In this document: one piece after another, positions 27,147 to 53,470 of the stretch
How positions within the stretch are numbered: the stretch's first letter is position 1
Layout of the letters: each line of letters opens with the position of its first letter
Source of the DNA: Micromonospora phaseoli
GTDB taxonomy: Bacteria > Actinomycetota > Actinomycetes > Mycobacteriales > Micromonosporaceae
NCBI RefSeq assembly: GCF_900109115.1
Contig: NZ_FNYV01000002.1
Span: 248,001-312,000 of the forward strand
Length of the DNA stretch: 64,000 bases
Direction of reading: 5' to 3'
Program-made: the position numbers and the translations under genes
Notes under the pieces: generated by a model
Told to the model about the DNA's origin: nothing
Database searches by the model: none
Seen by the model: only the letters and a program-made list of their open reading frames with translations

Positions 27147-27185
27147 CGGTACGTGCTCAGATCGGGTCGACACGAAGGAGTTTCC

Positions 27186-28112: not shown

Positions 28113-28136
28113 CCCGCCGGACGAAGGTTCCCGACC

Positions 28137-29024: not shown

Positions 29025-29043
29025 GAACAACGGGAGGAAGCCC

Positions 29044-29496: not shown

Positions 29497-29544
29497 GTAC
29501 GCCGCAGGACACCGCACCGCACCGCCGCCACCACCGGGAGACTG

Positions 29545-35576: not shown

Positions 35577-38369
35577 CTAGCCCAGCACCCGGGCCAGCTC
35601 GGTACGCGAGCGGATGCCGAGCCGGTGGAAGATGTTGCGCAGGTGATGGTCGACGGTCCGGGTGGACAGGAACATCGCGGTGGCGATCTCCCGGTTGGTG
35701 GCGCCGGAGGCGACCAGGTAGGCGATGTGCAACTGCTGCCCGGTGAGCAGGCGCGCCGCCGGTCGGTCCGGTGCGCCGACCGACTCCCCCGCCGCGCGCA
35801 GCTCGGTGGTGGCCTGCTCCGCCCACAGCTGCGCACCGAGCAGCGTGAACGTCTGCCGGGCGCGGTGCAGGTAGTCGCGCGCGTCGCGGGGACGACGACT
35901 GCGGCGCAGTTCCCGACCGAAGAGCAGTTCGGTGCGGGCGCGTTCGAAGGTGGCGCCGGCGGGGTGCAGTCGCAGCGCCGCGCGGAACTGCTTGTCGGCC
36001 TCGGCGCTGCCGCGCGGCGCCAACAGCGCGTGGCAGCGGGCCGACAGTGCCCGGCGCGACGGGCTGGCCGTACTGCCGACCCAGCGGTCGAAGACGGCGA
36101 GTGCGGCGCGGGCCTGCGCTGGCCGACCGTCATGTGTGGCGGCCTCCACCAGGTGGGGGGTGGCCATCACCTGGACGAGGACCTGCCCGCGCCCGGTGCC
36201 GGCGCGGGCCAGCGCGGCGAGCCGGTCGGCGGCGTCGGCGTAGCGGGCGTCGACCAGGTCGAGTACCGCCAGGGCCCACTGGGCGAGGGCGTACGGGCGG
36301 CTGTCGGGGGTGACCGCCTCGCCCATCTCGGCGACGTACCGAAGGCTGGTGTCCCGCTCGGCCCGCACGGCAGCCAACACCGCGAGCAGGCCCAGGTGCA
36401 CGGCGGCACAGGTGTGCTGGCCGCCGGCCCGCGCCACCCGCAACCCTTCCTGGCAGCTCTGGATCGCGGTGGCGTGCCGCCCCAGCCAGTACTCGGTCAT
36501 CGCGCGCAGTTCGAGCGTCCGGGGCAGCAGCGACAGCTCGCCGCGGTCGCGCGCCAGCTCGACGGCGCGGTCGGCAAGCCGGTGTGCCGGGGCGTCCACG
36601 GCCACCAGCAGGCCGGCCACGGCCGCGCCGCTCAGCGCGGTCGGGGTGAGCGCGGCGCCGGTCAGGCGGCCACCGAGGACGACGGCCCGGCGCAGCAGCG
36701 GACCAGCCCCGGTGTGCTCCCCCCGCAGGGTGGCGGCGACCCCGCCGACCAGCGTGCTCATCAGCTGCGCCTGCGGTGGATCTCCGTCGCGGCGCAGGGC
36801 GGCCATCCGACGCGCCACCTCGGCGTAGCGGTACTGCTCACCGGAGAAGCAGACCGCCTCGCCGGCCCGCACCAGCGCGACCATCGCCGAGCCGCGGTCG
36901 GTCTCGGCCAACGCGGTGGCGGCGGCCAGCAGAGTCGGCAACGCGGCCGGCGGGGCGCCACAGCGCAGTCGCATCTCACCACGCAGCAGGTCGGCGTGGC
37001 CGACGACGCTGGTCACGGCCGGTTGGGCGGAGGGCGGCGGGGCGCCAGTGCTCGGCTCGACCGGCGCGGGCGCCACGGCGTGCAGCAGCGCGCGGGCCCG
37101 GTCGGGGTCTCCGGCGAACCACGCGTAGCGGGCGGCGGTGACCCGCCTGGTCACGGCAAGTGACGGATCATCGCTGAGATCGGCGGCCCGGGTCAGCGCA
37201 GTGGCGGCGGTTGCCCAGTCGTCCACACCGTCGGCCGTCGCCGCCTCCAGCTCGGTCGCCAGGAGCGGGTCCGGGCCGTCCGCGGCGGCGGCCCGGTGCA
37301 GGGCCCGGGGCAGCCGCTGGCCGGCGGCGTCGAGCACGTCGGCGAGCAGCAGGTGGACGGCGCGCAGCTCGGTGCGGGACGCGGCGGCCCCGACCATGTC
37401 GCGGACGAGCGGTCGACCGAAGACCACCCCGCCCTGTGCGTCGACCCGGACCACACCGGCGGCCTCGGCCGGGGCCAGCGCCTCGACGCTGCTACCGGCG
37501 GAGCGGATCGCCCGGACCAGGGTGTCGGCGTCAAGATCGGCGGCGAGCGCGGCCAGCAGCAGTGCCCGGCGGGCGTCGTCCGGCAGCCGGCCCAGCAGCG
37601 ACCGGTACGCGCGGGCCAGGGCACCGTCGGGAGGCGGCGCGCCGGGCAACGGTTCCTGCCCCTGCCACTGGGCGGGGGTCAACGCGTCGGCGAGGTCGGC
37701 CAGGGCCTGCGGGTTGCCGGCGGCGATCGCGGTCAGTGCCGCGAGCACCGGTGCGGGCGGCTGCGGTCCGGGCCGCCGGTCGGCCAGCAGGCTGCGGCTG
37801 TCGCGATCTTCGAGCGGGAGCAACCGGTGGGTGCGGATCCCGGCCACGCCGGTGTCGCTGCCGGCGCTGAGCAGGATCGTGACCGGCAGGTGGTGCAGGC
37901 GCCGGGCCACGAAGGCCAGGGTGCGCGCGGTCGGTGGATCGCCGAGGTCGAGATCGTCCACGGTGCACAGCAGCGGACGGTTTCGGGCGACGGCGGTGAG
38001 CAGTCCCAGGACCGCCGTCGACAGGGCGAGCCGGTCCTCCTCGGGACACCCCTCCCCGGCCAGGGCGCACCGCAGCACCTGCCGCTGCCGCCCGGGTAGC
38101 GCCGCGGCGCGGTCGAGCACGGGATCGAGCAGCCGTTGCAGGCCCGCGAAGGGCAACGTGGCCTCGTCGGGCAGGCCGGTCGCGGCAAGCAGCGCGCGAC
38201 CGCCGGCATGGCGCTGGGCGTACGCCAGCAGGGCGCTACGGCCGGCGCCGGGCTCCCCGTGCAACAGCAGCGCTCCCCCGGCCGGCCGGTCGAGCAGTTC
38301 CCGGATCTCGCGGCACTCGTGCTCCCGCCCCCGCAGCACGGTTATCTGCACTCTCGATGCATAAACCAT
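35577..38369 (-). CDS. LAL-type LuxR regulator (large ATP-binding)
   Basis: About 930 aa. N-terminal AAA-like ATPase: Walker A LLLHGEPGAGRSALLAYA, Walker B PLLCTVDDLDLGDPPT. A long TPR-like helical middle follows, and a C-terminal LuxR HTH (ASGATNREIATAMFLSTRTV, DHHLRNIFHRLGIRSRTELA). LAL proteins activate secondary metabolism or sugar catabolism in actinomycetes. The start could be ATG 38369, ATG 38387 or GTG 38351; a 25-bp inverted repeat covers all three. It lies between the two importer operons; target unknown. Confidence 0.87.
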   Translation of the reverse strand: MVYASRVQITVLRGREHECREIRELLDRPAGGALLLHGEPGAGRSALLAYAQRHAGGRALLAATGLPDEATLPFAGLQRLLDPVLDRAAALPGRQRQVLRCALAGEGCPEEDRLALSTAVLGLLTAVARNRPLLCTVDDLDLGDPPTARTLAFVARRLHHLPVTILLSAGSDTGVAGIRTHRLLPLEDRDSRSLLADRRPGPQPPAPVLAALTAIAAGNPQALADLADALTPAQWQGQEPLPGAPPPDGALARAYRSLLGRLPDDARRALLLAALAADLDADTLVRAIRSAGSSVEALAPAEAAGVVRVDAQGGVVFGRPLVRDMVGAAASRTELRAVHLLLADVLDAAGQRLPRALHRAAAADGPDPLLATELEAATADGVDDWATAATALTRAADLSDDPSLAVTRRVTAARYAWFAGDPDRARALLHAVAPAPVEPSTGAPPPSAQPAVTSVVGHADLLRGEMRLRCGAPPAALPTLLAAATALAETDRGSAMVALVRAGEAVCFSGEQYRYAEVARRMAALRRDGDPPQAQLMSTLVGGVAATLRGEHTGAGPLLRRAVVLGGRLTGAALTPTALSGAAVAGLLVAVDAPAHRLADRAVELARDRGELSLLPRTLELRAMTEYWLGRHATAIQSCQEGLRVARAGGQHTCAAVHLGLLAVLAAVRAERDTSLRYVAEMGEAVTPDSRPYALAQWALAVLDLVDARYADAADRLAALARAGTGRGQVLVQVMATPHLVEAATHDGRPAQARAALAVFDRWVGSTASPSRRALSARCHALLAPRGSAEADKQFRAALRLHPAGATFERARTELLFGRELRRSRRPRDARDYLHRARQTFTLLGAQLWAEQATTELRAAGESVGAPDRPAARLLTGQQLHIAYLVASGATNREIATAMFLSTRTVDHHLRNIFHRLGIRSRTELARVLG

Positions 38370-38377
38370 GCATCGAG
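38353..38377. promoter_or_regulatory. Inverted repeat over the LAL gene start
   Basis: Perfect 10-bp arms CTCGATGCAT (38353-38362) and ATGCATCGAG (38368-38377) with a 5-bp spacer. The location over the start codons suggests an autoregulatory operator or a translation-blocking hairpin. Confidence 0.65.
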
Positions 38378-38483
38378 TCTCGCCCATGGAAGACCGCTTG
38401 AGAAGAGCTGAGCTGGAAAGAGGCGACCATCGCTGTCACCACCGTCAGCCACTCCACCGGACACGCCGCCCGGCGGGAGCCGG

Positions 38484-39131
38484 TCAGCGGTCGGCGGGCT
38501 CCGCGAGTAGGGCACCGACCGTCCGGGCCATCACCGCGCGGGCGGCGTCCACGCCCAGCCCGAGGCCGTCGCGCAGGGTCGACCAGGTCGGCCAGGTGCT
38601 CGCCGCCACCACCGCGTTGACCACCTGCTCCCGGCCCGGGTCGGCTCGATCCAGCTCGGTGGCGAAGAGCTTCTCGACCTCGTCGCGTACCCGGGCGATG
38701 TGCTTGAGCCGGTTCCGGCGCAGTTGGGCGGAGAACGGCTCGCGCATCTGCGCGGCGCGCGCCGACGGCGCGATCAGTTGCAGCAGCTTCGCCCGCTGCC
38801 GGCAGTACGCGTCGACCCGCTTGGCCAGCGGCAACGTGGGCGAGATCGGCCGCCAGGCGGCATCCTGCTGGCGGAGTAGCTCCGCGCCGCTCGCCTCGAA
38901 CAGGGTCTCCATGTCCTTGAAGTTGGTCCAGAGCGTACGCAGGGAGATGCCGGCCCGCTCGGCGATCCGCTCGCCGGTGGGGCGCAGGTCGCCCTCGGAG
39001 ATGAGCGCGAGGTGCGCCTCGACGATCGCCGCCCGGGTGCGTTCGGCCCGAGCGGTCCGCCCGTCGACCCGGCCCGCCGGCTCGCCCCGCCCCGGCGCTT
39101 CGGCCCGGTCCGGCGCCTCGGCCCTGCCCAT
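38484..39131 (-). CDS. TetR family transcriptional regulator
   Basis: 215 aa. The N-terminal 25 residues are an unusual Arg/Ala/Gly/Pro-rich tail; the HTH follows (RTRAAIVEAHLALISEGDLR, ERAGISLRTLWTNFKDMETL). The C-terminal domain has a Cys near AYCRQRAKLLQLI and no recognised ligand signature. It is the last gene of the long Liv/acyl-CoA dehydrogenase operon and may repress it through the palindromes at 46370 or 48754 (inference). Confidence 0.85.
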   Translation of the reverse strand: MGRAEAPDRAEAPGRGEPAGRVDGRTARAERTRAAIVEAHLALISEGDLRPTGERIAERAGISLRTLWTNFKDMETLFEASGAELLRQQDAAWRPISPTLPLAKRVDAYCRQRAKLLQLIAPSARAAQMREPFSAQLRRNRLKHIARVRDEVEKLFATELDRADPGREQVVNAVVAASTWPTWSTLRDGLGLGVDAARAVMARTVGALLAEPADR

Positions 39132-39179: not shown

Positions 39180-40415
39180 CTAGACGCGCGCCGGCGAGGG
39201 CGTTTCGACCCGATACCGGCGTAGTTCCCGGCGGGCCAGCGACTGCCGGTGCACCTCGTCGGGACCGTCGGCGATCCGGACCGCCCGGGCTCGGCTCCAG
39301 AGCCGGGCGAGCGGGGTGTCCTGGCTGACCCCGGCCGCACCGTGGGCCTGAACGGCCCGGTCGATGATCCATTCGACCGTCTCCGGCACTGCGATCTTGA
39401 TGGCCTGGATCTCCGTGTGGGCATGCCGGTTGCCGACGGTGTCCATCAACCACGCGGTCTTGAGCACCAGTAGGCGGGCCTGCTCCAGCCGCACCCGGGC
39501 CTGCGCGATCCAGTCCCGCACCACGCCCTGCTCGGCCAGTGGACCGCCGAAGGCGTGCCGCTCGCCGACCCGCCGGCACATCAGCTCGAGTGCCCGCTCC
39601 GCCATGCCCAGCAGCCGCATGCAGTGGTGCACCCGGCCCGGTCCCAGGCGGGCCTGGGAGATGGCGAAGCCGGAACCCTCCGTGCCGACCAGGTTCTCCA
39701 CGGGCACCCGGACATCGACGAAGTCGATCTCCGCGTGGCCGCCGTGGTCGCTGTCGTCGTACCCGAAGCTCGTCATGCCGCGCCGGACGGTGACCCCCGG
39801 CGTGTCCCGTGGCACGAGCACCTGGCTGTGCTGCTGATGCCGGGGCGCGGACGGGTCCGTCCGTCCCATCACGATGAAGATCGCGCAGCGAGGGTCCATC
39901 GCGCCGGTGACGAACCACTTGCGGCCGTTGATCACGTAGTCGTCGCCGACCCGTTCGACGCGGGTGGCGATGTTGGTGGCGTCGGAGGAGGCGACCGCCG
40001 GCTCGGTCATCGCGAACGCGGACCGGATGCGGGCCTCGAGTAGCGGCTCCAGCCAGCGCTCCCGCTGGACGGCCGAGCCGAACTGCGCGAGCAGTTCCAT
40101 GTTGCCGGTGTCGGGAGCGGCGCAGTTGAGCGCCACCGGGGCCAGCCACGGGCAGTGCCCGGTGATCTCGGCCAGCGGCGCGTACTGCAGGTTGGTCAGG
40201 CCGGCGCCGTGCTCACCGGGCAGGAACAGGTTCCACAGCCCACGCCGGCGTGCCTCGGACTGGAGCTCGGCGACGACCGGCGGCACCGTCCACGGCTCGT
40301 CGGGTTCGCGGGCCTGGGCGGAGAAGACCGGCTCGGCCGGGTACACGCATTCGGCCATGAAGCCACGCAGGCGCTCCCGCAGCCGCTCGGTCGTCTCGTC
40401 GTAGCGGAAGTCCAT
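39180..40415 (-). CDS. Acyl-CoA dehydrogenase, ACAD10/11-like
   Basis: 411 aa, ATG 40415 after GGAGG. The sequence closely follows the ACAD11 dehydrogenase pattern: FAMTEPAVASSDATNIATRV, YVINGRKWFVTGAMDPRCAI, SQVLVPRDTPGVTVRR, FGYDDSDHGGHAEIDF, RLGPGRVHHCMRLLGMAERA and GVSQDTPLARLWSRARAVRI, ADGPDEVHRQSLA. In mammals ACAD10/11 fuse this domain to an APH-type kinase domain and act in 4-hydroxy-acid catabolism. Here a separate upstream gene occupies the expected kinase position but is only a 50-codon stub. FAD-dependent; the substrate is probably a long or hydroxylated acyl-CoA. Confidence 0.92.
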   Translation of the reverse strand: MDFRYDETTERLRERLRGFMAECVYPAEPVFSAQAREPDEPWTVPPVVAELQSEARRRGLWNLFLPGEHGAGLTNLQYAPLAEITGHCPWLAPVALNCAAPDTGNMELLAQFGSAVQRERWLEPLLEARIRSAFAMTEPAVASSDATNIATRVERVGDDYVINGRKWFVTGAMDPRCAIFIVMGRTDPSAPRHQQHSQVLVPRDTPGVTVRRGMTSFGYDDSDHGGHAEIDFVDVRVPVENLVGTEGSGFAISQARLGPGRVHHCMRLLGMAERALELMCRRVGERHAFGGPLAEQGVVRDWIAQARVRLEQARLLVLKTAWLMDTVGNRHAHTEIQAIKIAVPETVEWIIDRAVQAHGAAGVSQDTPLARLWSRARAVRIADGPDEVHRQSLARRELRRYRVETPSPARV

Positions 40416-40416
40416 C

Positions 40417-40569
40417 TCATTGCCTCCGAATCGTGGCCAGGCCCTCGGCGACCAGCCCGGGCGCGGTCCGGTCCAGGTACGCCGCCAGCCGGCCCAGGTC
40501 GAGTCCGGGCAGCGCCGCCGCTCCGCTCGCCGCGTCAGGCGGAGCCACGGCGCCGGACCGGTCAGCCAC
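40417..40569 (-). pseudogene. APH-like phosphotransferase gene stub (50 codons)
   Basis: A 50-aa reading from GTG 40569 overlaps the SDR stop by 8 bp and ends 1 bp before the ACAD start. LPGLDLGRLAAYLDRTAPGL resembles the N-terminus of the APH/ACAD-associated phosphotransferases (LDLDRLRAYLD-PGL). The sequence then stops at ATIRRQ instead of entering the kinase core. No Brenner or HxD motif remains. The order SDR, phosphotransferase, ACAD11-like dehydrogenase is a known co-occurring module, so this is best read as an internally deleted kinase that keeps the operon's translational coupling. Confidence 0.65.
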
Positions 40570-41347
40570 GGGGACGCTCCGCGTCCTGCTGGAGGCGGTT
40601 CATCCCGCGCAGCCAACGGTCCGGGTCGGCGGCCCGATTGGCGTACCAGGTGGCGACCTCGGGATGCGGCAGCACCAGGAACCGGTCGTCGGCCAACGCC
40701 TCGACCACACATTCGGCCACCCGCTCGGCGGTCAGGGCGGTGGAGTCCAGCAGCGCGCTGCTCATCGCGTCGGCCCCGGCAAGCATCGGGGTACGCACAC
40801 CCTGCGGGCAGAGGGCCTGGACGGTGACGCCCCGGTGCGCGTACGTGGCGCGCAGCCATTCGGCGAAGCCGAGCGTGGCGTGTTTGGTCACCGCGTACGG
40901 CGCCTTGCCGAGCAGCGTGAGCAGGCCGGCGGCGGAGGCGGTGACCAGCAGCCGGCCCCGCCCGGCGGCGAGCCAGTGCGGGAGCAGCTCGCGGGCGGCG
41001 TACACGTGGGACATCACGTTGACCCGCCAGGCCGCCTCCCATGCCTCGTCGACCGCGTCGATGCCGCCGCCGGGCGCCACTCCGGCGTTGGCGCAGTACA
41101 GATCGACGCCGCCGAACCGCCGGCGGGCGAAGCCGACGAGCGCCGCCACGCCGGACGGGTCGGCGGCGTCGCCGGGGCAGGCGTGGCCACCGACGCGCGC
41201 CGCCACGGCCCGGGCCGCGCCGGCGTCCAGGTCGTTGACCACCACCCGGGCGCCGGCGGCGGCGAACCGGGAGGCGAGCGCCGCCCCGATGCCGGAGCCC
41301 GCACCGGTCACCACGACGGTCGCGCCGGGCAGCGCGAACGCGGTCAT
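40562..41347 (-). CDS. Short-chain dehydrogenase/reductase
   Basis: 261 aa. The Rossmann motif is TGAGSGIGAALASRFAAAGA, NAG-type region YCANAGVAPGGG, and the catalytic Ser, Tyr and Lys are in LLVTASAAGLLTLLGKAPYA, VTKHATLGF. Its start ATG 41347 has a CCGGGGTGCC stretch upstream without a strong Shine-Dalgarno. A hairpin lies between it and the upstream binding-protein gene. Likely oxidises a hydroxyacyl or alcohol intermediate of the ACAD11-like pathway. Confidence 0.9.
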   Translation of the reverse strand: MTAFALPGATVVVTGAGSGIGAALASRFAAAGARVVVNDLDAGAARAVAARVGGHACPGDAADPSGVAALVGFARRRFGGVDLYCANAGVAPGGGIDAVDEAWEAAWRVNVMSHVYAARELLPHWLAAGRGRLLVTASAAGLLTLLGKAPYAVTKHATLGFAEWLRATYAHRGVTVQALCPQGVRTPMLAGADAMSSALLDSTALTAERVAECVVEALADDRFLVLPHPEVATWYANRAADPDRWLRGMNRLQQDAERPRG

Positions 41348-41436
41348 CCGGCACCCCGGGCCGCGAGTACCCCTGAAGGCGCGCCGACGATCCGCGTGTT
41401 CGGCGGGGGCATGTTTCTCCGTCCACTGGTTCGGGC

Positions 41437-41467
41437 GTGGTCCGCACCGGGACGCGGTGCGGACCAC
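41437..41467 (-). terminator. Hairpin between Liv binding-protein and SDR genes
   Basis: Perfect 13-bp stem GTGGTCCGCACCG (41437-41449) with CGGTGCGGACCAC (41455-41467) and a 5-nt loop, 14 bp after the binding-protein stop. It could partly end transcription and raise the binding protein relative to downstream genes, as in the other importer operon. Confidence 0.7.
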
Positions 41468-41480
41468 GGGAACGAGAGGG

Positions 41481-42761
41481 TCAGGCGGTCGGTACGCCGT
41501 TGGCCGGTGGCGTCACCGCCGGGGCGGCGTACTCGTTGACCGGCCCGTCGGACTCGTCGGTCTCGTACGTCGGGCCGAAGTAGCTCTGCTTTCCTCCGCT
41601 GACCCGGCTCAGCCGGCCGCCGCCGTACCCCGAGTGGTCGGTGCCGGAGAAGCGCAGCGGAGCGACTCCCGGCCCCTGGTAGCCGCCCTTGGCGACGGCT
41701 TCCACCAGTGACTCGCGGGTCAGGTCCTGGCCGGCGGCCTGTAGCACCTGCACGAAGAGGTAACCGACGGCCATGCCGTAGACCGTGTTGCCGTCGAACT
41801 CCGCGCCGCCGTTGTGCTCGGCGTTCACCTTGGTGAACAGCTGGATCCACGGGTCGGCGGTGTCACCCTGCATCGGCAGGTAGTTGACGCCGACCAGCCC
41901 CTCCAGCAGGCCGGCGGCGTCGCCGAGCTGCCGGGACAACGTCGGGTGGTCGGCGCCCACGTTCGACACCAGCCACTGTGGGCTGAATCCCAGCCGGGCG
42001 GCGGTGCCGATGGAAAGTGCGGTGAAGCCGGGCACGGTGGCGAGGATGACGACCTCGCAGCCGGCCGACTTGAACGCGCCGATCTGGGGAGCCACGTTGG
42101 TGTTGCTGGTGACGTACGTCTGGCGCGCCGCGACGCCGTCAGCGCCGAGCACCTTCTCCACCCCGACCAGGGCGTCCCGGCCGAAGTCGTCGTCCTGCCC
42201 CAGGAAGCACACCTTCTTGCCGGGCAGCTCGGTCTTCACGTGGTTGGCCAGGATCTTGCCCTCGACGGTGTAGTCGGGGTTGAAGCCGAAGGTGCCCGGA
42301 TAGCGGTCGGGCTGGTCCCAGCTGCGACTGCCGGAGGCGACGAAGAGGTCGGGCACCCGGTTGGTGTGCAGGAAGTCCAGCACACCGGTGTGGGTGGGCG
42401 TGCCGAGCCCGTTGAGGATGGCGAAGACCTTGTCCTGCAGGACCAGTTGGCGGACGACCTGCTGGGTGGTGGCGGGGTTGTACCCGTCGTCCATGATCTT
42501 GTAGGTGATCTTCCGACCGTGCACGCCGCCATTGGCGTTGACGTAGTCGAAGTACGCCTTCGTCGCCGGGGCGATCTTCGAGTAGCCGGCGGAGGCCGGA
42601 CCGGTCAGCGGCATGTGGGTGCCGACGACGATCTCCGTGTCGGTGACGCCGGGCACCGGCTGACCGGCACCGGGACCATCGTCGGAGCCGCAGGCGGCGG
42701 AGGTGAGCAGGAGAGTGAGGGTACTGGCGATGGCGAGACCGCGCCGTGCCGTGGATCGCAT
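41481..42761 (-). CDS. ABC transporter substrate-binding lipoprotein (Liv/HAAT type)
   Basis: 426 aa from ATG 42761. Signal with lipobox TSAAC (Cys24). The mature part starts GVTDTEIVVGTHMPLTGPAS, which is the typical opening of type I periplasmic-binding lipoproteins of the branched-chain amino acid family; such proteins in this family also bind aromatic or short-chain acids. ILNGLGTPTHTGVLDFL, FVASGSRSWDQPDRYPGTFG and VCFLGQDDDFGRDALVGVEK follow. It is the last transport component, encoded downstream of ATPases and permeases. The acyl-CoA dehydrogenases in the operon suggest the ligand is a carboxylic acid (inference). Confidence 0.9.
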   Translation of the reverse strand: MRSTARRGLAIASTLTLLLTSAACGSDDGPGAGQPVPGVTDTEIVVGTHMPLTGPASAGYSKIAPATKAYFDYVNANGGVHGRKITYKIMDDGYNPATTQQVVRQLVLQDKVFAILNGLGTPTHTGVLDFLHTNRVPDLFVASGSRSWDQPDRYPGTFGFNPDYTVEGKILANHVKTELPGKKVCFLGQDDDFGRDALVGVEKVLGADGVAARQTYVTSNTNVAPQIGAFKSAGCEVVILATVPGFTALSIGTAARLGFSPQWLVSNVGADHPTLSRQLGDAAGLLEGLVGVNYLPMQGDTADPWIQLFTKVNAEHNGGAEFDGNTVYGMAVGYLFVQVLQAAGQDLTRESLVEAVAKGGYQGPGVAPLRFSGTDHSGYGGGRLSRVSGGKQSYFGPTYETDESDGPVNEYAAPAVTPPANGVPTA

Positions 42762-42826
42762 GGGACACCGACCTTTCATCGGTCCGGTTACGCGAATTGG
42801 GGTGAGGGGATGGTGGGTGGGACGGA

Positions 42827-43930
42827 CTACGAACGGTGGTGGCGCCACCGGACCCGCAGCGTCCCGGTGAGGCGGGACAGCAGACCCTGCACGCCACCGG
42901 GCGCGGCGATCATGACGACGATCAACGTGACACCGAAGATCGCCAATGGCAGGTTGCCCTCCAGCCGCTGTGCCGCCGCCGGCGAGAGGGTGAACAGGCT
43001 GGTCAGGGAGTGCGTCAGGTCGGGCAGGGCGACCAACAGGAAGGCGCCCCACACCGCGCCGGCGAGCCGACCGAGACCACCGATGACCACCGCCATCAGC
43101 AGGAACAGCGACAGCGTCAGACCGAACGCGCCGGGCGAGACGCTCTGCGCGAGCACCGCCAGCAGCGCGCCGCCGAGGCCGGCGCTGGCCGCGCTGACCA
43201 CGAACGCGATGACCTGGGTGCGGGCGACGTGGATCCCGGCCAGGCGGGCGGCGACCTCGTCGTCGCGTACCGCCCGGAAGGCCCGGCCGTACCGGCTGCG
43301 AACCAGGTTGGCCAGCAGCACCAGGCAGAGCAGCGTCGCCACGGCGGCTGTCCAGAGCTGCCACCGCTCGTACGGGAAGTAGGGGCCCAACGCCCGGGGA
43401 GCGGGCGCCATCGGTACCGAAAGGCCCTGCTCGCCGTTGAAGACGCCGTTGAAGGTGACGGTCAGCGCCGGCACCACCACCGCCACCGCCAGGGTGAGCC
43501 CGGCCAGGTACGGGCCGCGCAGCCGGGCGGCGGCCACCCCGACGACCGCGCCGACGACGACGGTGGCCAGCACCGCCACGGCCAGCGACAGGATCAGCAA
43601 CCCGCCGGCGGTGAGGCCCCGCTCGGCGAAGGCGTTCTGCACCAACGCGAGGGTGTACGCGCCGGTCGCCATCAGCGCGCCGTGCCCCAGCGAGAGCTGC
43701 CCGCAGAGTCCGGTGAGGACGGTCAGCCCGGCGGTGGCGCAGAGGTACGCCGCCACGGTGGCCAGTTGGAAGTTGCGGAACGAGTCGAGCTGGTAGCTGA
43801 GCACGAGCACCACCAGCGCGGCGCCGGTGGCGAACGCGAGGTGGCGCAGCACGGTCGGCACGCTCCGGCCGGGGCGGACGGGCTCGGCGGCGTGGCGGGC
43901 GGGCGGTGCGACCGCCCGGGTGGCGCTCAC
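42827..43930 (-). CDS. livM: ABC transporter permease LivM-like
   Basis: 367 aa, about ten membrane segments. The LivM mark GQLSLGHGALMATGAYTLAL, the EAA-type stretch RYGRAFRAVRDDEVAARLAG and the C-terminal VVIGGLGRLAGAVWGAFLLV are present. Overlaps LivH by 4 bp. Confidence 0.92.
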   Translation of the reverse strand: MSATRAVAPPARHAAEPVRPGRSVPTVLRHLAFATGAALVVLVLSYQLDSFRNFQLATVAAYLCATAGLTVLTGLCGQLSLGHGALMATGAYTLALVQNAFAERGLTAGGLLILSLAVAVLATVVVGAVVGVAAARLRGPYLAGLTLAVAVVVPALTVTFNGVFNGEQGLSVPMAPAPRALGPYFPYERWQLWTAAVATLLCLVLLANLVRSRYGRAFRAVRDDEVAARLAGIHVARTQVIAFVVSAASAGLGGALLAVLAQSVSPGAFGLTLSLFLLMAVVIGGLGRLAGAVWGAFLLVALPDLTHSLTSLFTLSPAAAQRLEGNLPLAIFGVTLIVVMIAAPGGVQGLLSRLTGTLRVRWRHHRS

Positions 43931-44805
43931 ACCCGCCTCGCCGTGACCGGGGCGAACAGCCCACCGGGACGCAGCAGCAGCACCGTCAGCAGCAGCGCGA
44001 GCACCGCGAGGGGTATCAGGTCGCCGCCGGCGTAGCCGCTGACGTAGGAGAGCAGCAGGCCGACGCCGAGCCCACCGACGACGGCGCCGGGCGGGCTGTC
44101 CAGCCCGCCGACCACCGCGGCGGTGAACGCGGAGACGAAGACCAGATCCATCGCGTGCGGGTGCAGTCCCAGTTCGGTGGGGATGACCAGCATCCCGGCC
44201 AGGGCACCGACACCGGAGGCGAGCGCCCAGCCGAGGGTGAGCATGCCGCCCACGTTGACCCCGAGCAGGCGGGAGACCTCGGGTGCGAACGCCGCCGCGC
44301 GCATCCGCAGCCCGATCGCGGTCCGGGTGAAGATCCAGACCAGTGCCGCGCCGACCACGCCGACGGTGCCGAAGACGAACAGGTCGTACGGGGACAGCAC
44401 GGCGGTGCCGCCGACCGTCAACGCGGTGCGGCTGAACGGTGCCCGCGCCGGCAGGTACTCGTTGCCGTAGACCATGCCCAGGACCGCCTGGATCAGCAGG
44501 ACCAGCCCGAGCGCGACGATCACGGGGTTGAGCGGTGACCGGTGGTCCACCAGCCGCATCACCGCGACGTCGACCACCACGCCGAGCAGCAGGCCGGCGA
44601 CCAGCGCCGCGGCGAAGCCCAGCCAGTACGAGCCGGTCGCGGCGGTGACGCTGTACGCGACGTACGCGGCGGCGACCGCCATCGCCCCCTGCGCGAAGTT
44701 GACGATCCGACCGGCCCGCCAGATGAGCACCAGCGCGAGCGCGAACGCGGCCAGGACCGCGCCTCTCGACAGGCCGTCGAGAGTGAGGAAGAGAAAGCGG
44801 TCCAA
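43927..44805 (-). CDS. livH: ABC transporter permease LivH-like
   Basis: 292 aa, about eight membrane segments; typical GRIVNFAQGAMAVAAAYVAY near the start and TALGLRMRAAAF-type EAA loop (here RTAIGLRMRAAAFAPEVSRL). DSPPGAVVGGLGVGLL closes. Forms the pore with LivM. Confidence 0.92.
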   Translation of the reverse strand: MDRFLFLTLDGLSRGAVLAAFALALVLIWRAGRIVNFAQGAMAVAAAYVAYSVTAATGSYWLGFAAALVAGLLLGVVVDVAVMRLVDHRSPLNPVIVALGLVLLIQAVLGMVYGNEYLPARAPFSRTALTVGGTAVLSPYDLFVFGTVGVVGAALVWIFTRTAIGLRMRAAAFAPEVSRLLGVNVGGMLTLGWALASGVGALAGMLVIPTELGLHPHAMDLVFVSAFTAAVVGGLDSPPGAVVGGLGVGLLLSYVSGYAGGDLIPLAVLALLLTVLLLRPGGLFAPVTARRV

Positions 44806-44820
44806 CGATCCTCCTTCCCT

Positions 44821-45540
44821 TCAGAATCCGAGGTAGGCGTGGCGTAGGTCGGTGTCGTCGCGCAGCTGGGCGGCCGGTGCGGCGAGCACCACCCGGCCGA
44901 GCGACATGACGATGCCCTGGTCGGCGACGGCGAGCGCGCTGCGCACGTTCTGCTCGACCAGCAGCACGGTCAGCCCGGTGTCGTCGCGCAGTTGCCGCAG
45001 CAGGGCCATGGTCTGGGCCACCACCTTGGGCGCCAGGCCGAGCGACGGCTCGTCGAGCAGCAGCAGTCGGGGCCGGCCGACCAGCGCCCGGCCGAGGGCC
45101 AGCATCTGTCGCTCGCCACCGGAGAGCTGGTGGCCGAGGTGGCGCCGACGCCGGGCCAGCGGCTCGAACAGCTGGTATGCCTCGTCGAGGGCGCGTGCGG
45201 CGGCTGCCCGGTCACGCCGCCACAGCGCGCCGAGGCGCAGGTTCTCCTCGACGGTGAGTTCGCCGATGACGCCACGTCCTTCCGGCACGTGTGCCACGCC
45301 GCGCCGGACGAGCTGCTCGACCGGGGTGCCGCGCAGGTCCTTCCCGTCGAGCAGGATCCGGCCGGCGGTCGGACGCAGCATGCCGGAGAGGGTGCGCAGC
45401 AGGGTGGTCTTGCCGGCGCCGTTGGCGCCGATGACGGCGGTGATGGTGCCGAGCGGCACGCTGAGGTCCACGCCGTGCAGCACCGGCACCGGACCGTAGC
45501 CGGCGGCGAGAGCGTCGGCGCGCAGCAGATCATTGCTCAT
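44821..45540 (-). CDS. livF: ABC transporter ATP-binding protein LivF-like
   Basis: 239 aa. Walker A GANGAGKTT, signature LSGGERQMLALGRAL, Walker B LLLLDEPSLGLAP, switch His replaced by the family's VLLVEQNVR. ATP hydrolysis drives the importer with LivG. Confidence 0.93.
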   Translation of the reverse strand: MSNDLLRADALAAGYGPVPVLHGVDLSVPLGTITAVIGANGAGKTTLLRTLSGMLRPTAGRILLDGKDLRGTPVEQLVRRGVAHVPEGRGVIGELTVEENLRLGALWRRDRAAAARALDEAYQLFEPLARRRRHLGHQLSGGERQMLALGRALVGRPRLLLLDEPSLGLAPKVVAQTMALLRQLRDDTGLTVLLVEQNVRSALAVADQGIVMSLGRVVLAAPAAQLRDDTDLRHAYLGF

Positions 45541-46339
45541 GTCGGCGCTCCGCTTCGCTGCGCTCCGCTTCCACGGTCGCGCCGAGGTAGGCGTCCACCA
45601 CGGCCGGGTCCTCGCGGACCGCCTCGGGGGGCCCGGCGGCGACGACCCGTCCGAAGTCGAGGACCACGATCCGGTCGCAGACCGCCATGACCAGGTCCAT
45701 GTGGTGTTCCACCAGCAGCACGGCGCAGGGGTCGGCGGCCCGGTGCGGCAGGCCCCGGATCAGGTCGGCCAACGCGTCGACGTCCTCGGCGCCGAGGCCG
45801 CCGGCCGGCTCGTCGAGCAGCAGCAGCCGGGGGCGGGCGGCCAGCGCCCGGGCCAGACCGACCCGCTGGCGTACCGCGAACGGCAGGGTGTCCGGCGCGG
45901 CACCGGCGTGGGTCGCGATGCCCAGCTCGTCCAGGACGGTCAGCGCGTGCTCGCGCAACCGGCGCTCGTCGCGGTCGCTGCGGGGCAGGCCGAGCAGGGC
46001 CGGCAGCAGGCCGGCACGCGCGGTGTGCGTTGCGCCGGCCATCACGTTCTCCAGCACGGTGAGCCCGGCGAACAGGCCGGTGCCCTGCAACGTCCGGGCG
46101 ATGCCCAGCCGGGTGAGCCGGTGCGGTCGTGGGCGCAGCGGCCGGCCGTCGAGGCTCAGTGAGCCGGTCTGCGGGGTGACGAAGCCGCAGACGACGTTGA
46201 ACAGGGTGGTCTTGCCGGCACCGTTGGGGCCGATCACGCCCACCACCTCGCCCGGGCAGACCCGCAGCGAGACGTCCTCGAGTGCGGTGAGGCCGCCGAA
46301 GCGGACACCGATGTGGTGCAGGGCGAGACCGTCCTCCAT
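45530..46339 (-). CDS. livG: ABC transporter ATP-binding protein LivG-like, unusual signature
   Basis: 269 aa from ATG 46339 after GGAGGG. Walker A GPNGAGKTT and Walker B LLLLDEPAGGLGAEDV are intact. The ABC signature reads LPFAVRQRVGLARALA in place of LSYGDQRRLEIARAL, a divergent LSGGQ that occurs in some actinobacterial LivG lineages. First gene of the long leftward operon. It overlaps LivF by 11 bp. The promoter palindrome lies about 30 bp upstream. Confidence 0.9.
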   Translation of the reverse strand: MEDGLALHHIGVRFGGLTALEDVSLRVCPGEVVGVIGPNGAGKTTLFNVVCGFVTPQTGSLSLDGRPLRPRPHRLTRLGIARTLQGTGLFAGLTVLENVMAGATHTARAGLLPALLGLPRSDRDERRLREHALTVLDELGIATHAGAAPDTLPFAVRQRVGLARALAARPRLLLLDEPAGGLGAEDVDALADLIRGLPHRAADPCAVLLVEHHMDLVMAVCDRIVVLDFGRVVAAGPPEAVREDPAVVDAYLGATVEAERSEAERRHEQ

Positions 46340-46369
46340 CAGCCCTCCCTCACCCACGATCCGAAGTTA

Positions 46370-46386
46370 TTACACTGGGAGTGTAC
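46370..46386. promoter_or_regulatory. Palindromic operator before livG (site 1)
   Basis: TTACACTGGGAGTGTAC contains TACACT-GGG-AGTGTA (46371-46385), a perfect palindrome. It is related to the site at 48754-48770: both fit TTRCACTGNNARTGYA. It lies in the promoter region of the Liv operon. Confidence 0.65.
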
Positions 46387-46468
46387 ATTTCTGAATTGTT
46401 TCGTCAAGGCCTTCGATGCCACTCGTTCCCTGCCCACCGACGGTGAGCCGCGCCAGGACCCGGCTCGG

Positions 46469-47581
46469 TCAGTCGGCCCGGTCGGGCACCTCGGCGGGCG
46501 CGGGCAGGTCGACCAACCGGGCCAGTGCGGCCCGGTGCCGGTCGGTGGTGCCGAAGGCGACGGCGGCACTCTTGGCCCGCTTGAGGTACAGGTGCGCCGG
46601 GTGCTCCCAGGTGAACCCGAGCCCGCCGTGCAGCTGGACGCAGACCTCGGCGGCCCGCACCGCCACCGGAGCGCAGTACGCCTGCGCCAGCGCGGCCGCC
46701 AGCGACGCCTCCGGATGGCCGGCGGCGAGGCGGTCGGCCGCGTGGCGAGCCACCGCCCGCGCCTCGGTGATCTCCACCCACAGGTCGGCCAGCCGGTGCT
46801 TGACCGCCTGGAACGAACCGATCGGGCGGCCGAACTGCCGGCGGTCCCGCACGTGTGCGACCGTCGCGTCCAGACACCACTGCGCCAGGCCGACCTGCTC
46901 GGAGGCGAGCAGCGCCGCGCCGGCGGTCAGCGCGGCCGACACCGCCCGGGCCGCCATAGGGCCGGCGGCGACCAGCCGGGCCGGCGCACCGGTGAACGCC
47001 ACGTCGGCCAGCGGCCGGGTGGCGTCGAGCGACACCACGGGGGTCAACCGCACCCCCCGGTCGGCCGCGTTCACGGCGTACAGCCCGTCGCCGGCCGGCA
47101 CCAGCAGGACGTCGCCGGCCAGCGCGTCGGCCACACCGGTCACCGTGCCGGTCAGCACCGGACCCGGCGCCACCGTGACCGGTCGGGGTGCGGCGTCCGG
47201 CGCGGTGGCGAGGCAGACCGCCAGGGCCACGTCCCGCTCCCCGGTGGCCAGCTGGCCGAGCAACTCGCGCTCGCCGCAGGCCAGCAACGCCCGGGTGGCC
47301 ACCACCACGCCCAGGAACGGCACCGGCGCGACCGCCCTACCCAGCTCCTCCAGCACCACCGCGACCTCGCGGAAGCCGGCCCCGGCTCCGCCGTACTCGA
47401 CGGGTACGGCCAGGCCGGTCACGCCGAGCTGGTCGACCAGCCGGGTCCACAGTGCCGCGTCGTAGGGCTCGCCGTCGTCGAGGCGGGCCAGGGTCCGCTG
47501 CCACGGGGCGTGCGCCGCCAGCAGCGCCCGCACGGTGTCGCGCAGGGCCTCCTCGTCGGAGTCGTAGAGCAGGTCGCTCAT
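46469..47581 (-). CDS. Acyl-CoA dehydrogenase
   Basis: 370 aa, ATG 47581 overlapping the upstream gene's stop (ATGA). N-terminal helical domain with GLAVPVEYGGAGAGFREVAV; a reduced middle domain; C-terminal domain with RRQFGRPIGSFQAVKHRLAD and VQLHGGLGFTWEHPAHLYLK, the FadE form typical of actinobacterial paired dehydrogenases. A base in the usual place is not obvious. Such pairs form heteromeric FadE complexes in cholesterol side-chain and related catabolism. Likely forms a heteromer with the dehydrogenase encoded upstream. Confidence 0.9.
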   Translation of the reverse strand: MSDLLYDSDEEALRDTVRALLAAHAPWQRTLARLDDGEPYDAALWTRLVDQLGVTGLAVPVEYGGAGAGFREVAVVLEELGRAVAPVPFLGVVVATRALLACGERELLGQLATGERDVALAVCLATAPDAAPRPVTVAPGPVLTGTVTGVADALAGDVLLVPAGDGLYAVNAADRGVRLTPVVSLDATRPLADVAFTGAPARLVAAGPMAARAVSAALTAGAALLASEQVGLAQWCLDATVAHVRDRRQFGRPIGSFQAVKHRLADLWVEITEARAVARHAADRLAAGHPEASLAAALAQAYCAPVAVRAAEVCVQLHGGLGFTWEHPAHLYLKRAKSAAVAFGTTDRHRAALARLVDLPAPAEVPDRAD

Positions 47582-48735
47582 TTGTCCACCCGGGGTTCGG
47601 CGGGCAGCCCGAGCACCCGCTCCGCGATGACGGTGCGCAGGATCTCCGAGGTGCCGCCCTCGATGGAGTTGCCCCGGGCCCGTAGGTAGCGGAAGGTGGC
47701 GGTGCGGCCGAGCAGGTCGGGTTCCGTCGGGCGGCGCATCGTCCAGTCGTCGTACCGCAGCCCTTCGGCGCCGAGCAGCTCCACCTCCAGTCCACTGATC
47801 CGCTGGCTGAGTTCGGCGAAGGAGAGCTTCACCGCCGAGCCCTCGGGGCCGGGCTGACCGGCGGCGACCAGCTGGCGCAGACGCAGCGCGGCGAGTCGGG
47901 CCGCCTCGGCGCGTACCCACGAGCGCAACACCTCCTCGTGCAGGCCCGCGGTACGCAGCTCGGGCCGCTCCCGCCAGAGCCGCGCCAGCACGCCGACCAT
48001 GCCGCCCTCGCGGGGCAACGGTCGCCCGCCGATCGCGACGCGCTCGTTCATCAGGGTGGTGCGGGCGATCTGCCAGCCCTCCCCCACCGCGCCGACCCGC
48101 TGGTCGTCCGGCACCCGGACACCGGTCAGGAAGACCTCGTTGAACTCCGCCTCGCCGGTGAGCTGGCGCAGCGGGCGTACCTGTACCCCCGGTGCGGTCA
48201 TGTCGCAGACGAAGTAGGTGATGCCGCGATGCTTGGCCGCGGCCGGGTCGGTGCGGGCCAGCAGGATCGCCCAGCGCGCCTCGTGGGCCATCGACGTCCA
48301 CACCTTCTGACCGTCGACCACCCAGTCGGCGCCGTCACGGACCGCCCGGGTACGCAGGCTGGCCAGGTCGGATCCGGCGTCGGGCTCGCTGAACAGCTGG
48401 CACCACACCTCCTCGCCGGTCCACAACGGCCGCAGCCAACGTCGGCACTGCGCCTCGGTGGCGTGTCGCAGCAGGGTCGGCGCGGCCATGCCGAGGCCGA
48501 TGCTGTTGCGCCGGGGGCGGTTGTCCGGCGCGCCCGCCTCGGCGAAGGCCGCGTCGGTGACCGCCTGCAGCTGCGGCGGCGCGCCCAGGCCACCGTGCCC
48601 GGGCGGGTGGTGCACCCAGGCCAGCCCGGCGTCGAACCGGGCCCGCAGGAAACCGACCCGGTCGCCGCGCGGGTCGTGGGTACGCAGGAACGCGGCGACC
48701 AGCCCCCGCAGCTGGTCGGCGGTGTGCTCGGACAC
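47578..48735 (-). CDS. Acyl-CoA dehydrogenase (paired FadE-like subunit)
   Basis: 385 aa from GTG 48735 with GGAGG at the right distance; a longer ATG reading runs into the operator. VQLFSEPDAGSDLASLRTRA-like flavin motif (CQLFSEPDAGSDL), WVVDGQKVWTSMAHEARWAI, and GNSIEGGTSEILRTVIAERV at the C-terminus. First gene of a two-gene FadE operon. An exact palindrome precedes it. Confidence 0.92.
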   Translation of the reverse strand: MSEHTADQLRGLVAAFLRTHDPRGDRVGFLRARFDAGLAWVHHPPGHGGLGAPPQLQAVTDAAFAEAGAPDNRPRRNSIGLGMAAPTLLRHATEAQCRRWLRPLWTGEEVWCQLFSEPDAGSDLASLRTRAVRDGADWVVDGQKVWTSMAHEARWAILLARTDPAAAKHRGITYFVCDMTAPGVQVRPLRQLTGEAEFNEVFLTGVRVPDDQRVGAVGEGWQIARTTLMNERVAIGGRPLPREGGMVGVLARLWRERPELRTAGLHEEVLRSWVRAEAARLAALRLRQLVAAGQPGPEGSAVKLSFAELSQRISGLEVELLGAEGLRYDDWTMRRPTEPDLLGRTATFRYLRARGNSIEGGTSEILRTVIAERVLGLPAEPRVDK

Positions 48736-48753
48736 TCGCCACCTCCAATCTAG

Positions 48754-48770
48754 TTGCACTGACAATGCAA
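48754..48770. promoter_or_regulatory. Palindromic operator before the FadE pair (site 2)
   Basis: TTGCACTGACAATGCAA pairs in 7 of 8 positions about its centre. Matches the livG site in the shared TTRCACTG core, so the same regulator (probably the TetR at 38484) may link transport and dehydrogenation. Confidence 0.7.
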
Positions 48771-48816
48771 TATAGTGCCGCCGGTCCTCGGGACGGAAGA
48801 CCGGCGGCCGGACGCT

Positions 48817-48848
48817 CCGGGGGTGGCCGCCGACGCGACCACCCCCGG
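48817..48848 (-). terminator. Terminator of the polyester hydrolase gene
   Basis: CCGGGGGTGG (48817-48826) and CCACCCCCGG (48839-48848) form a 10-bp stem with a 12-nt loop just after the stop codon at 48855. Confidence 0.7.
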
Positions 48849-48854
48849 GCGACG

Positions 48855-49742
48855 TCAGTGCGGGCAGGTGTTGCGGTACTCCTCGACGGCCAGGCCGCTC
48901 GGACCCGGGCAGAGGAACTGCTCGTAGCGGGTGTCGTCGTCGACGAACCGCTTCAGCCAGGCGACCATCTGCTTACCGGTCGGCGTGTTGACCGTGTTCG
49001 GGAAGAAGTGGCTCGCGTTGTTCAGCTCCAGGTACGCCTTCTCCGCCGACGCCGGGATGCTGTTGTAGAACGGCACGGAGTGCGACGAGACCGGCGCGAC
49101 GCTGTCACTCTCGCCGCCGATGATCAGCGTCGGCACCCGCAGGCTCGACCAGTTCTTGCTCAGGTTCCACGGCGCCAACGGCACGGCGGCCTGCAACGAC
49201 GGGCGGCTCGCGGCGGCCTCCAGGCTGCCGCCGCCGCCCATCGAGTGGCCGGCCACGGCGAGCCGACCGGCGTCGACCCGGCCGCGCACGGAGCTGCGCT
49301 CGGTCAGGTAGTCCAGCGCGGCCAGCAGCTGCCGGCCCCGGCTGGCCGGCTGGTCGAGGCGGCTGTTGGTGTCGATGCCGATCACCACGAAGCCGTGCGA
49401 GGCGATCCGCGGGCCGAGCCAGTCCATGCTCGACCAGGAGGCGGTGTAGCCGGGCGAGATGGCGACGGCGCCGAAGGTGCCCTCGCTGGTGGTGGTCGGG
49501 TAGTAGATGACGCCGCCGCCGAAGCCGCTGACCAGCGACGAGACGTTCGTGGAGGAGGTCGCGAAGGGGCCGCGGCTGGCCTCCAGGACCGCGTTGGTCG
49601 GCGCCGGTCCGCGCTCGTACGGGTTGGCGGCCTGGGCGGGGGACGAGGTGGCGACGACGCCGCCGGTGGCCAGCACGGCGGCCATCGCCAGTCGGGCCAC
49701 GAGGGACACGGAACGGGGACGGGTGGTGGTGGGTGATCGCAC
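48855..49742 (-). CDS. Secreted polyester hydrolase / cutinase (PETase-type alpha/beta hydrolase)
   Basis: 295 aa, GTG 49742 with AAAGGGAG upstream. Signal peptide ends in SPAQAA, then [20 protein letters not shown], the start of the Thermobifida-type cutinases. Catalytic Ser167 in [10 protein letters not shown], Asp213 in ESDSVAP and His245 in NNASHF form the triad; Tyr99 in PGYT and Met168 form the oxyanion hole; Trp192 in APWNLSKNW is the substrate-binding position. Cys278 and Cys293 form the expected C-terminal disulfide. Members hydrolyse cutin, triglycerides and many polyesters including PET. The gene stands alone among cell-wall-polymer enzymes. Confidence 0.92.
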
Positions 49743-49836
49743 GTCGGTACTCCCTTTGCGTTGGAGCTGTATCGACTGCGATCAGTGTTTGTGCTGGTCC
49801 ACCGGCGGCGCATCGGCAAAATCACCAGTCACCGGT

Positions 49837-49870
49837 GCCGCCGGTGGAGCGGTTCGGCTCCACCGGCGGC
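49837..49870 (-). terminator. Terminator of the arabinofuranosidase-like gene
   Basis: GCCGCCGGTGGAGC (49837-49850) pairs perfectly with GCTCCACCGGCGGC (49857-49870) over 14 bp with a 6-nt loop, 11 bp after the stop. Confidence 0.8.
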
Positions 49871-49881
49871 CCGGGGCTACC

Positions 49882-51993: not shown

Positions 51994-52021
51994 GGTTGTC
52001 CTTCGTTGATCACGGCGGAGA

Positions 52022-52068
52022 TCCGCCGGCCCCCGAGCCCTGGTGGAACGGGCTCGGGGGCCGGCGGA
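52022..52068. promoter_or_regulatory. Perfect 19-bp-stem hairpin in the glycosidase 5' region
   Basis: Arms TCCGCCGGCCCCCGAGCCC (52022-52040) and GGGCTCGGGGGCCGGCGGA (52050-52068) with a 9-nt loop, 29 bp before the glycosidase ATG. As strong as any terminator here but in a 5' position: an attenuator, or an insulator between divergent transcripts. Confidence 0.7.
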
Positions 52069-52243
52069 CACAGGAGACAGCTCCGGTCACCTACCGTCGT
52101 CCCCCGGAACCGTGACGGTCCCGGTTGCCCATCGGGCGACGGTCACTCACGCGCGACAACGCATCGACACATTGACACCATCGACGCATCAGAATCCCAC
52201 AGCATCCCGCGCCGACTCAACGGTCCGTTCCGCCATTGCGTCG

Positions 52244-52258
52244 AACTTTAGTAAAGTT
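52244..52258. promoter_or_regulatory. Perfect palindrome before the chitinase gene
   Basis: AACTTTAGTAAAGTT is a perfect 7+1+7 palindrome about 83 bp before the chitinase start. Candidate operator for a carbohydrate-responsive regulator of the ROK or LacI type (inference); it does not match the LacI-type sites at 58902 and 61990. Confidence 0.6.
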
Positions 52259-52340
52259 TGTGAACAATAGATGTTACTATCACCGCCATCGATGGCGATC
52301 CTGCCGTCGACGTCCCGCTCCCACGGAAGGAGTGATTCAC

Positions 52341-53426: not shown

Positions 53427-53431
53427 TCCCT

Positions 53432-53469
53432 CGGTCCGGCGCCGCCAAGACCCTGACGGCGCCGGACCG
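53432..53469. terminator. Bidirectional terminator between chitinase and AidB-like genes
   Basis: CGGTCCGGCGCCG (53432-53444) and CGGCGCCGGACCG (53457-53469) form a perfect 13-bp stem with a 12-nt loop, ending both converging genes. Confidence 0.8.
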
Positions 53470-53470
53470 G

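Follow-up and report, generated by a model that had tools for sequence, protein, structure and literature searches.

A gene for a secreted polyester hydrolase of the PETase/LipA type, the genes of a Liv/HAAT ABC importer and of acyl-CoA dehydrogenases, and a gene for a LAL regulator lie close together in the window, by which we mean the whole 64,000-nucleotide stretch of DNA analyzed here. Our main conclusion is that they probably belong to a LipR-type regulon, which would couple the secreted hydrolase to the import and beta-oxidation of the acids released. We also propose, with somewhat better than even confidence, that the same scheme extends across Actinomycetes: one LipR-type LAL and a 20-bp operator would define a small regulon, in which hydrolases including TfCut1/TfCut2, a dedicated Liv importer and beta-oxidation form the uptake step for natural polyesters, the native products being aliphatic acids and not terephthalate. 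The regulation of lipA by LipR is already known; the link to the importer appears to be the new part: a search of open-licence PMC text returned no paper whose title or abstract describes it.

The scheme would work as follows. A LipR-type LAL would sense a hydrolysis product or the ATP state, bind the 20-bp imperfect dyad and turn on the hydrolase, which outside the cell would cut an aliphatic polyester, with cutin or suberin the likeliest, via a Ser-His-Asp acyl-enzyme route. The dedicated Liv/HAAT ABC importer would take in the carboxylic acids set free, which are probably (hydroxy)fatty acids, and the acyl-CoA dehydrogenases and the short-chain dehydrogenase (SDR) would degrade them.

The hydrolase had been described, in a reading of the sequence only, as a homologue of PETase-type polyester hydrolases, and the PF12740 PETase profile bears this out: it matches residues 37-294 of the 295 at E 1e-126, a value that excludes chance, with 422.1 bits against a curated cut-off of 28 and positions 2-263 of its 263 covered. 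The residues named in that reading (the Ser167-Asp213-His245 triad, Tyr99 and Met168 of the oxyanion hole, and Trp192) are all present at these numbers, and the protein carries the combination of Ser-Asp-His triad, GHSMG, Trp and C-terminal cysteine pair that marks PETases. Tyr99 is not diagnostic, since its position is occupied by Phe in four of eight reference enzymes and in one paralogue. As for the C-terminal disulfide claimed in the same reading, its cysteines are there, 278 and 293 being the only two of the protein, and the bond itself is predicted from the pair. The N-terminus is, by eye, a Sec-type signal peptide; the best solved chain starts at the equivalent of ANPY. The NCBIfam equivalog for BHET hydrolase, NF051441, gave 483.8 bits, below its cut-off of 520. 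Judged from its sequence, the enzyme is thus an ordinary, new member of a well-known family, and is likely to have polyester activity. That the setting is mesophilic is plausible, as Micromonospora supplies the nearest named homologues among the matches listed.

The family is common. At least 344 PETase relatives occur among at least 594 pattern stretches of the genome collection; the best 80 of these, 66-92% identical to the window hydrolase, make up the named homologues, all of which were used below. In the window's family 76 of 121 genomes have a PETase match at E<=1e-60, in its class 76 of 394, and close counterparts of the window hydrolase are found across Micromonospora. The idea of a novel or rare enzyme was discarded in view of the PF12740 match, the many relatives and solved relatives about 73% identical. 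A recent plasmid origin was likewise rejected: matches occur in merely eight plasmid records, one of them chromosome-sized, and the locus is conserved within Micromonospora. The genome also has a second, divergent PETase-type copy, 54% identical (L002:1288-2856; G000:C8:65981-66853), in which the Trp is replaced by Tyr and a Thr/Pro linker and a ricin-type lectin domain are present. It adjoins a GH62 gene that also bears a ricin-type domain, which suggests a relative of cell-wall esterases.

The PETase gene heads a 14-kb run of genes on the same strand, with intergenic gaps of -11 to 137 nt, the order after it being acd1, acd2, livG, livF, livH, livM, the substrate-binding protein (SBP) gene, the SDR gene, acd3, TetR and LAL (Table 1). 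A Shine-Dalgarno-like stretch, AAAGGGAG, lies by eye ahead of its GTG start.

Table 1. Position and strand of the features of the locus, in window coordinates.
Feature	Position	Strand	Remarks
20-bp operator-like motif GCATCGGCAAAATCACCAGT	49810..49829	(+)	67 bp between site and PETase start
PETase/LipA-type polyester hydrolase gene, secreted	48855..49742	(-)	PF12740; 295 aa; GTG start
Pair of strong hairpins after the PETase stop, before acd1	48777..48851	(-)	Terminator/attenuator candidate
acd1, acyl-CoA dehydrogenase	47578..48765	(-)
acd2, acyl-CoA dehydrogenase	46469..47581	(-)	4-nt overlap with acd1
Sigma-70-like promoter match (9 of 12), about 20 bp ahead of livG	46380..46407	(-)
livG-type ABC ATPase	45530..46357	(-)	With BCA_ABC_TP_C
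livF-type ABC ATPase	44821..45540	(-)
livH-type permease	43927..44805	(-)	PF02653
livM-type permease	42827..43930	(-)	PF02653
Substrate-binding lipoprotein (SBP)	41481..42761	(-)	PF13458; lipobox by eye
Short-chain dehydrogenase (SDR)	40562..41467	(-)
acd3, acyl-CoA dehydrogenase	39180..40424	(-)
TetR-family regulator	38484..39131	(-)	PF00440 match under curated cut-off
LAL regulator, LipR-type	35577..38387	(-)	936 aa; AAA_16 + GerE/LuxR

Two features of the run argue for some separation between the hydrolase and the importer. The 113-nt stretch 48745-48857, which spans the 89-nt gap between PETase and acd1, has a folding dG of -74.6 kcal/mol (z -6.75); its two strong hairpins argue against one simple operon, since termination or attenuation of the PETase transcript may occur there. 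A single sigma-70-like match was found in 13 kb, with 0.3 expected by chance, and as it lies ahead of livG, a separate promoter may serve the liv genes in the window genome. The scan for sigma-70 promoters and T-tail terminators gave nothing at PETase itself, and the Rfam scan of 40000-54000 gave no family at its gathering score. Hairpins and promoter-like match both favor a different explanation, namely that the enzyme is a stand-alone secreted cutinase or lipase and that the Liv importer serves an unrelated substrate, such as branched-chain amino or aromatic acids, the two being near each other by ancestry. We consider this improbable, on grounds of linkage and of shared motif that are given below. 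Two further observations concern the surroundings of PETase. An inverted repeat, TTGCA-N7-TGCAA, is seen by eye just before acd1 (48750-48775) and is possibly a separate operator. Upstream of PETase (49882-53426) lie genes for a CBM2/fn3 glycosidase-like protein and a GH19 chitinase with CBM5/12, neighbors that are kept, among the loci compared, only in the closest Micromonospora relatives.

The linkage of PETase, importer and regulator is conserved. Of the 80 named loci, the best 80 of at least 344, 72 have a LAL gene at most 4 kb away, livG at most 6.5 kb away, or both: 30 have only livG, downstream on the same strand, 36 only the LAL and 6 both. The remaining 8 have neither, and of these at least two (L010, L056) are near contig ends; the label upstream that this count gives to the Rhodococcus row and to one row of Asanoa stems solely from gene overlap. 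Among 183 PETase rows (180 distinct), scored for a LAL within 4 kb and at least three liv components within 13 kb, 55 have only the LAL, 47 only the liv set, 10 both and 71 neither, the short loci L001 and L002 being counted as neither. By comparison, a LAL or a set of three liv genes is found at none of 20 loci of the clade of the window genome's own second copy, and likewise at none of the 14 that represent a second group of paralogues.

At the level of genomes, 50 of the family and 30 of the class carry both the PETase and the SBP gene; the two are at most 10 kb apart in 11 of the former and 12 of the latter (window genome included in each), while we estimate that random placement in 6-Mb genomes would give well under one such case. 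Since related genomes are not independent, the number of arrangements weighs more than these counts. In Micromonospora and Catelliglobosispora the order is PETase-(acd1-acd2)-livGFHM-SBP on one strand; many Micromonospora, Amycolatopsis and Rhodococcus rhodnii have the same order without the acd genes, with LAL and TetR divergent in the last two and a 4-nt overlap of PETase and livG in R. rhodnii. In 11 loci chosen for the nearness of the genes (L083-L093), LAL-livGFHM-SBP is convergent with PETase. The Nonomuraea order is livG-livF-livM-LAL-PETase; in Actinoplanes the LAL is divergent, and in some Micromonospora and in Asanoa it is directly downstream. This recurrence of the linkage in differing arrangements, in several families, speaks against mere proximity of a stand-alone hydrolase and an unrelated importer. 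On the other side, in most genomes with both genes the two are not found within 10 kb (39 of 50 in the family, 18 of 30 in the class), and the liv-acd module also occurs without PETase.

Most of the linked LALs are one orthologous group, as far as their sequences tell. Besides the window LAL, the window genome contains one full-length LAL similar to it at E<=1e-10, with 37% identity, and in addition a single partial match. Ten further genomes were searched and nine had a LAL match; in eight of the nine, the best homologue of the window LAL is linked to PETase or liv genes, and in the Streptomyces-like G252 the PETase-adjacent LAL ranks second. In a midpoint-rooted FastTree of 68 LALs, the root separates 46 of 49 linked rows from all 19 unlinked paralogues, which were sampled by similarity and from the searched genomes only. 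Once four duplicate rows are removed, 42 of 45 distinct linked LALs, the window LAL among them, stand apart from all 19 paralogues; three linked LALs of Streptomyces type stand beside the paralogues. The linked group is probably LipR, the known activator of lipA in Streptomyces. According to passages of a 2025 review, LipR is an activator of the LuxR family that works through conserved sequences upstream of -35, and lipA and the contiguous downstream lipR form an operon that it directly activates (PMC12134079). The regulator half of our model thus has a precedent.

Motif discovery by EM in 69 non-redundant upstream regions of linked PETases produced GCATCGGcGAAATCACCgGt, an imperfect dyad of the form A[TC]CGG[TC]GA-NN-TC[AG]CCG[GA]T. 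The window site scores 34.4 of a maximum of 36.3 bits; within the window genome the PETase site is unique at up to two mismatches, and four more sites appear at three. To avoid circularity, we trained the model again on just 26 rows, all from Micromonosporaceae (log-likelihood 456; shuffled rows gave 55), and set its threshold at 15 bits, a score that no shuffled 460-bp window out of 4000 attained. Random windows of the same loci that were left unshuffled attain it in 166 of 4000 cases, because the loci were picked around these genes. Among PETases from other families, the retrained model detects a site at 40 of 50 distinct linked ones (10 have none) and at 12 of 32 unlinked ones, compared with 5 of 20 and 3 of 14 loci in the control paralogue groups. 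Sites also lie ahead of 23 of 76 LALs, of 3 of 21 acd1 genes and of livG, in this last case at 4 of 21 loci without PETase and at 1 of 51 with it. The scarcity of livG sites beside PETase is expected if PETase bears the site, and also fits an unrelated liv operon. The window liv genes have no motif of their own, the other hits in the window being weak and elsewhere, so that for the window itself a shared control of liv and PETase is a prediction.

We infer that the LAL is the protein that binds this motif. The TetR protein encoded within the window module, or some other factor, could bind it instead. TetR dimers bind dyads, and Amycolatopsis and Rhodococcus have a different TetR gene divergent to PETase. 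We nevertheless regard this possibility as doubtful: TetR types vary by lineage (L077 and L082 have a PF18598 type, which the window lacks) while the motif is constant, Nonomuraea, Planotetraspora and Thermobifida loci have LAL and motif with no homologue of either TetR detected in the stretch, and LipR is itself the factor reported to act at conserved upstream sequences.

The LAL remains the favored regulator, and the strongest evidence for a shared regulon is the presence of the motif at cutinases and a liv operon that are not linked to each other. Two genomes of one genus (g120) provide it: G229, taken as Thermobifida because its tandem cutinases are 99.2% and 93.5% identical to TfCut2, and G290, with tandem copies 82-83% identical. 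Each has, at up to two mismatches, exactly three sites, at the two tandem cutinases and at the liv operon, located about 0.36-0.41 kb before the cutinase gene match and about 0.23 kb before livG. In genus g16, a one-mismatch site lies 6-8 kb ahead of SBP in seven of seven genomes, with acd1 seen downstream of it in two (G016, G087) and the other five assigned by distance and orientation; four of the six g16 genomes with a PETase elsewhere also bear a site at that PETase. G393 has perfect sites at PETase and, on a separate contig, between LAL and livG. Such a rare motif, common to unlinked Thermobifida cutinases and their liv operon and to all seven g16 liv modules, is hard to reconcile with a hydrolase and an importer that have unrelated functions.

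The motif is indeed rare: at up to one mismatch, there are 63 real sites in the 121 family genomes and 36 in the 394 class genomes, and none in either for the reversed pattern, although at three mismatches this control also matches, in 6 of 12 genomes. Thirty sites at up to one mismatch were left unexplained by PETase or known liv/LAL genes and were sorted by hand; 20 were fetched, the ten left out being G086, G118:C16, G059, G120, G431, G123, G447, G151, G198 and G419. The first downstream gene of the 20 encodes a secreted hydrolase-fold protein in 11 cases, a LAL divergent from livG in two and a predicted membrane transporter in two; five (L278, L279, L280, L286, L288) were assigned no target. 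The 11 hydrolase-fold targets, nine of which were Pfam-scanned while L276 and L290 were classed by likeness to L275 and L289, comprise class-2 lipases, an Abhydrolase_10 protein and three divergent PF12740 relatives. For L287 and L292 the site is just inside the longest ORF, and a later start codon was assumed. Behind a one-mismatch site, L275:4062-5279, L276 and L277:4173-5453 encode a secreted, divergent PETase-fold group, with weak PF12740 matches (E 1e-11 for L275 and 1e-10 for L277). The class-2 secreted lipases (L287, L289, L290, L292-L294) follow the motif, several of them beside a LAL-like gene. The two transporter genes (L281:3303-4946 and L282:3330-5003) are downstream of a perfect motif and look by eye like sodium:solute symporters, no Pfam family matching the L281 protein at E 0.001; in genus g39 this transporter may replace the Liv importer.

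The motif thus marks secreted ester hydrolases broadly, which fits a LipR-type regulon and speaks against a plastic-specific one. It is conceivable, though we think it rather unlikely, that in nature the enzyme serves chiefly as a triacylglycerol lipase or carboxylesterase, within a simple-lipid regulon, with polyester cleavage as a side activity, a view compatible with much of the LipR-regulon model. Motif sites ahead of class-2 lipases in other genomes agree with it, the two PDB chains closest to the window hydrolase carry the name triacylglycerol lipase, and lipA, the regulatory precedent, is called a lipase in the passages of the review (PMC12134079). The 65% identity to TfCut2, the cutinase-type active-site residues and the presence of the same motif at the TfCut-type cutinases of Thermobifida weigh on the side of a polyester hydrolase.

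The importer is complete, with two ATPases, two PF02653 permeases and a PF13458 SBP, and that it carries products of the hydrolase is an inference from its linkage and its neighbors. The AF2 model of the SBP (mean pLDDT 90, pTM 0.87) has 4n03 as its top structural match over residues 30-407 (Z 41.9, rmsd 2.6, 367 aligned, 21% identity); this entry is titled fatty acid ABC transporter substrate-binding protein, of T. curvata, a name that may have no ligand assay behind it. The next matches are valine-bound 3lkb (Z 41.2, tied with 4n03) and 3lop (40.8), and neighbors with aromatic acids, among them 4-hydroxybenzoate and coumarate binders, follow at Z 35-37. In a comparison of sequences only, 3lop is the top match and 4n03 the next; the SBP of L136, a candidate close relative of 4n03, turned out not to be close (70 bits). 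Neighbors that bind valine, 4-hydroxybenzoate and coumarate would suit an importer unrelated to the hydrolase. The fold alone is insufficient to name the ligand, but the acyl-CoA dehydrogenases and SDR, together with the ligase-like and (by eye) thiolase-like genes of the liv surroundings in relatives, make a fatty or hydroxy-fatty acid the likeliest one. According to passages of one report, Streptomyces scabiei on suberin produces suberinase Sub1 and beta-oxidation proteins, and its culture gains omega-hydroxy and dioic acids (PMC5158115), data that are compatible with the regulon model. Elsewhere in the window (27153-31071), near another ABC transporter, an SDR-like ORF, an amidohydrolase (PF04909), a MaoC-like ORF and an AMP-ligase (PF00501) form a cluster, with the SDR, MaoC and transporter recognized by eye, which is possibly a site of further acyl catabolism.

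Cutinase-type PET hydrolases are intensively engineered, and to our knowledge the native inducers, products and uptake systems of the actinomycete enzymes are poorly known. A defined operator, regulator and importer would make these questions directly testable, and would supply a sensor and promoter for polyester products. Motif, LAL and liv genes together are also a genomic signature for further esterases, which has already led to the class-2 lipases and the divergent PETase-fold group.

The nearest regulatory parallel is LipA-LipR of Streptomyces exfoliatus and S. coelicolor. As in that system, the window LAL belongs to a group linked to PF12740 genes and a conserved sequence lies upstream of the hydrolase, the conservation here being one among the genomes compared. 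In LipA-LipR the regulator is contiguous with the hydrolase gene, whereas the window LAL sits past the Liv importer and the acyl-CoA dehydrogenases; the passages of the review that describe LipA-LipR mention no importer (PMC12134079). All five components of the HAAT/Liv importers, known from LivKHMGF and the aromatic-acid SBPs of Rhodopseudomonas, have their match in the window, although the window SBP is just 12-23% identical to 50 listed structural entries.

Among solved hydrolases, the closest to the window protein are the PET hydrolases 7ykq and 7yko (72.6% and 72.5% identical) of Thermomonospora curvata, a thermophile. Both share the active-site surroundings of the window enzyme (W-N, H/F, FF), but have Phe at the oxyanion position where the window has Tyr99. 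Streptomyces LipA (1jfr), likewise of PF12740 type, is 70.2% identical; passages of one paper give 1jfr as a lipase of S. exfoliatus (PMC11485624). Thermobifida TfCut2 is 64.8% identical, and TfCut1/TfCut2 have the catalytic set, the C-terminal cysteine and the upstream motif in common with the window; they differ in having H after the Trp192 position, where the window has N, and in being distant from liv genes. LCC is 56.4% identical. The IsPETase of Ideonella sakaiensis (54.1%) has the same triad, Trp and Tyr/Met oxyanion residues. The Ser214/Ile218 pair and a second disulfide (203-239) are presumably the markers of its type (type II). The window has H221 and F225 in place of S214 and I218, as do the cutinases compared, and G210 and F247 in place of the second disulfide, so that an IsPETase-like type II site is ruled out and the window hydrolase is, by its residues, cutinase-type.
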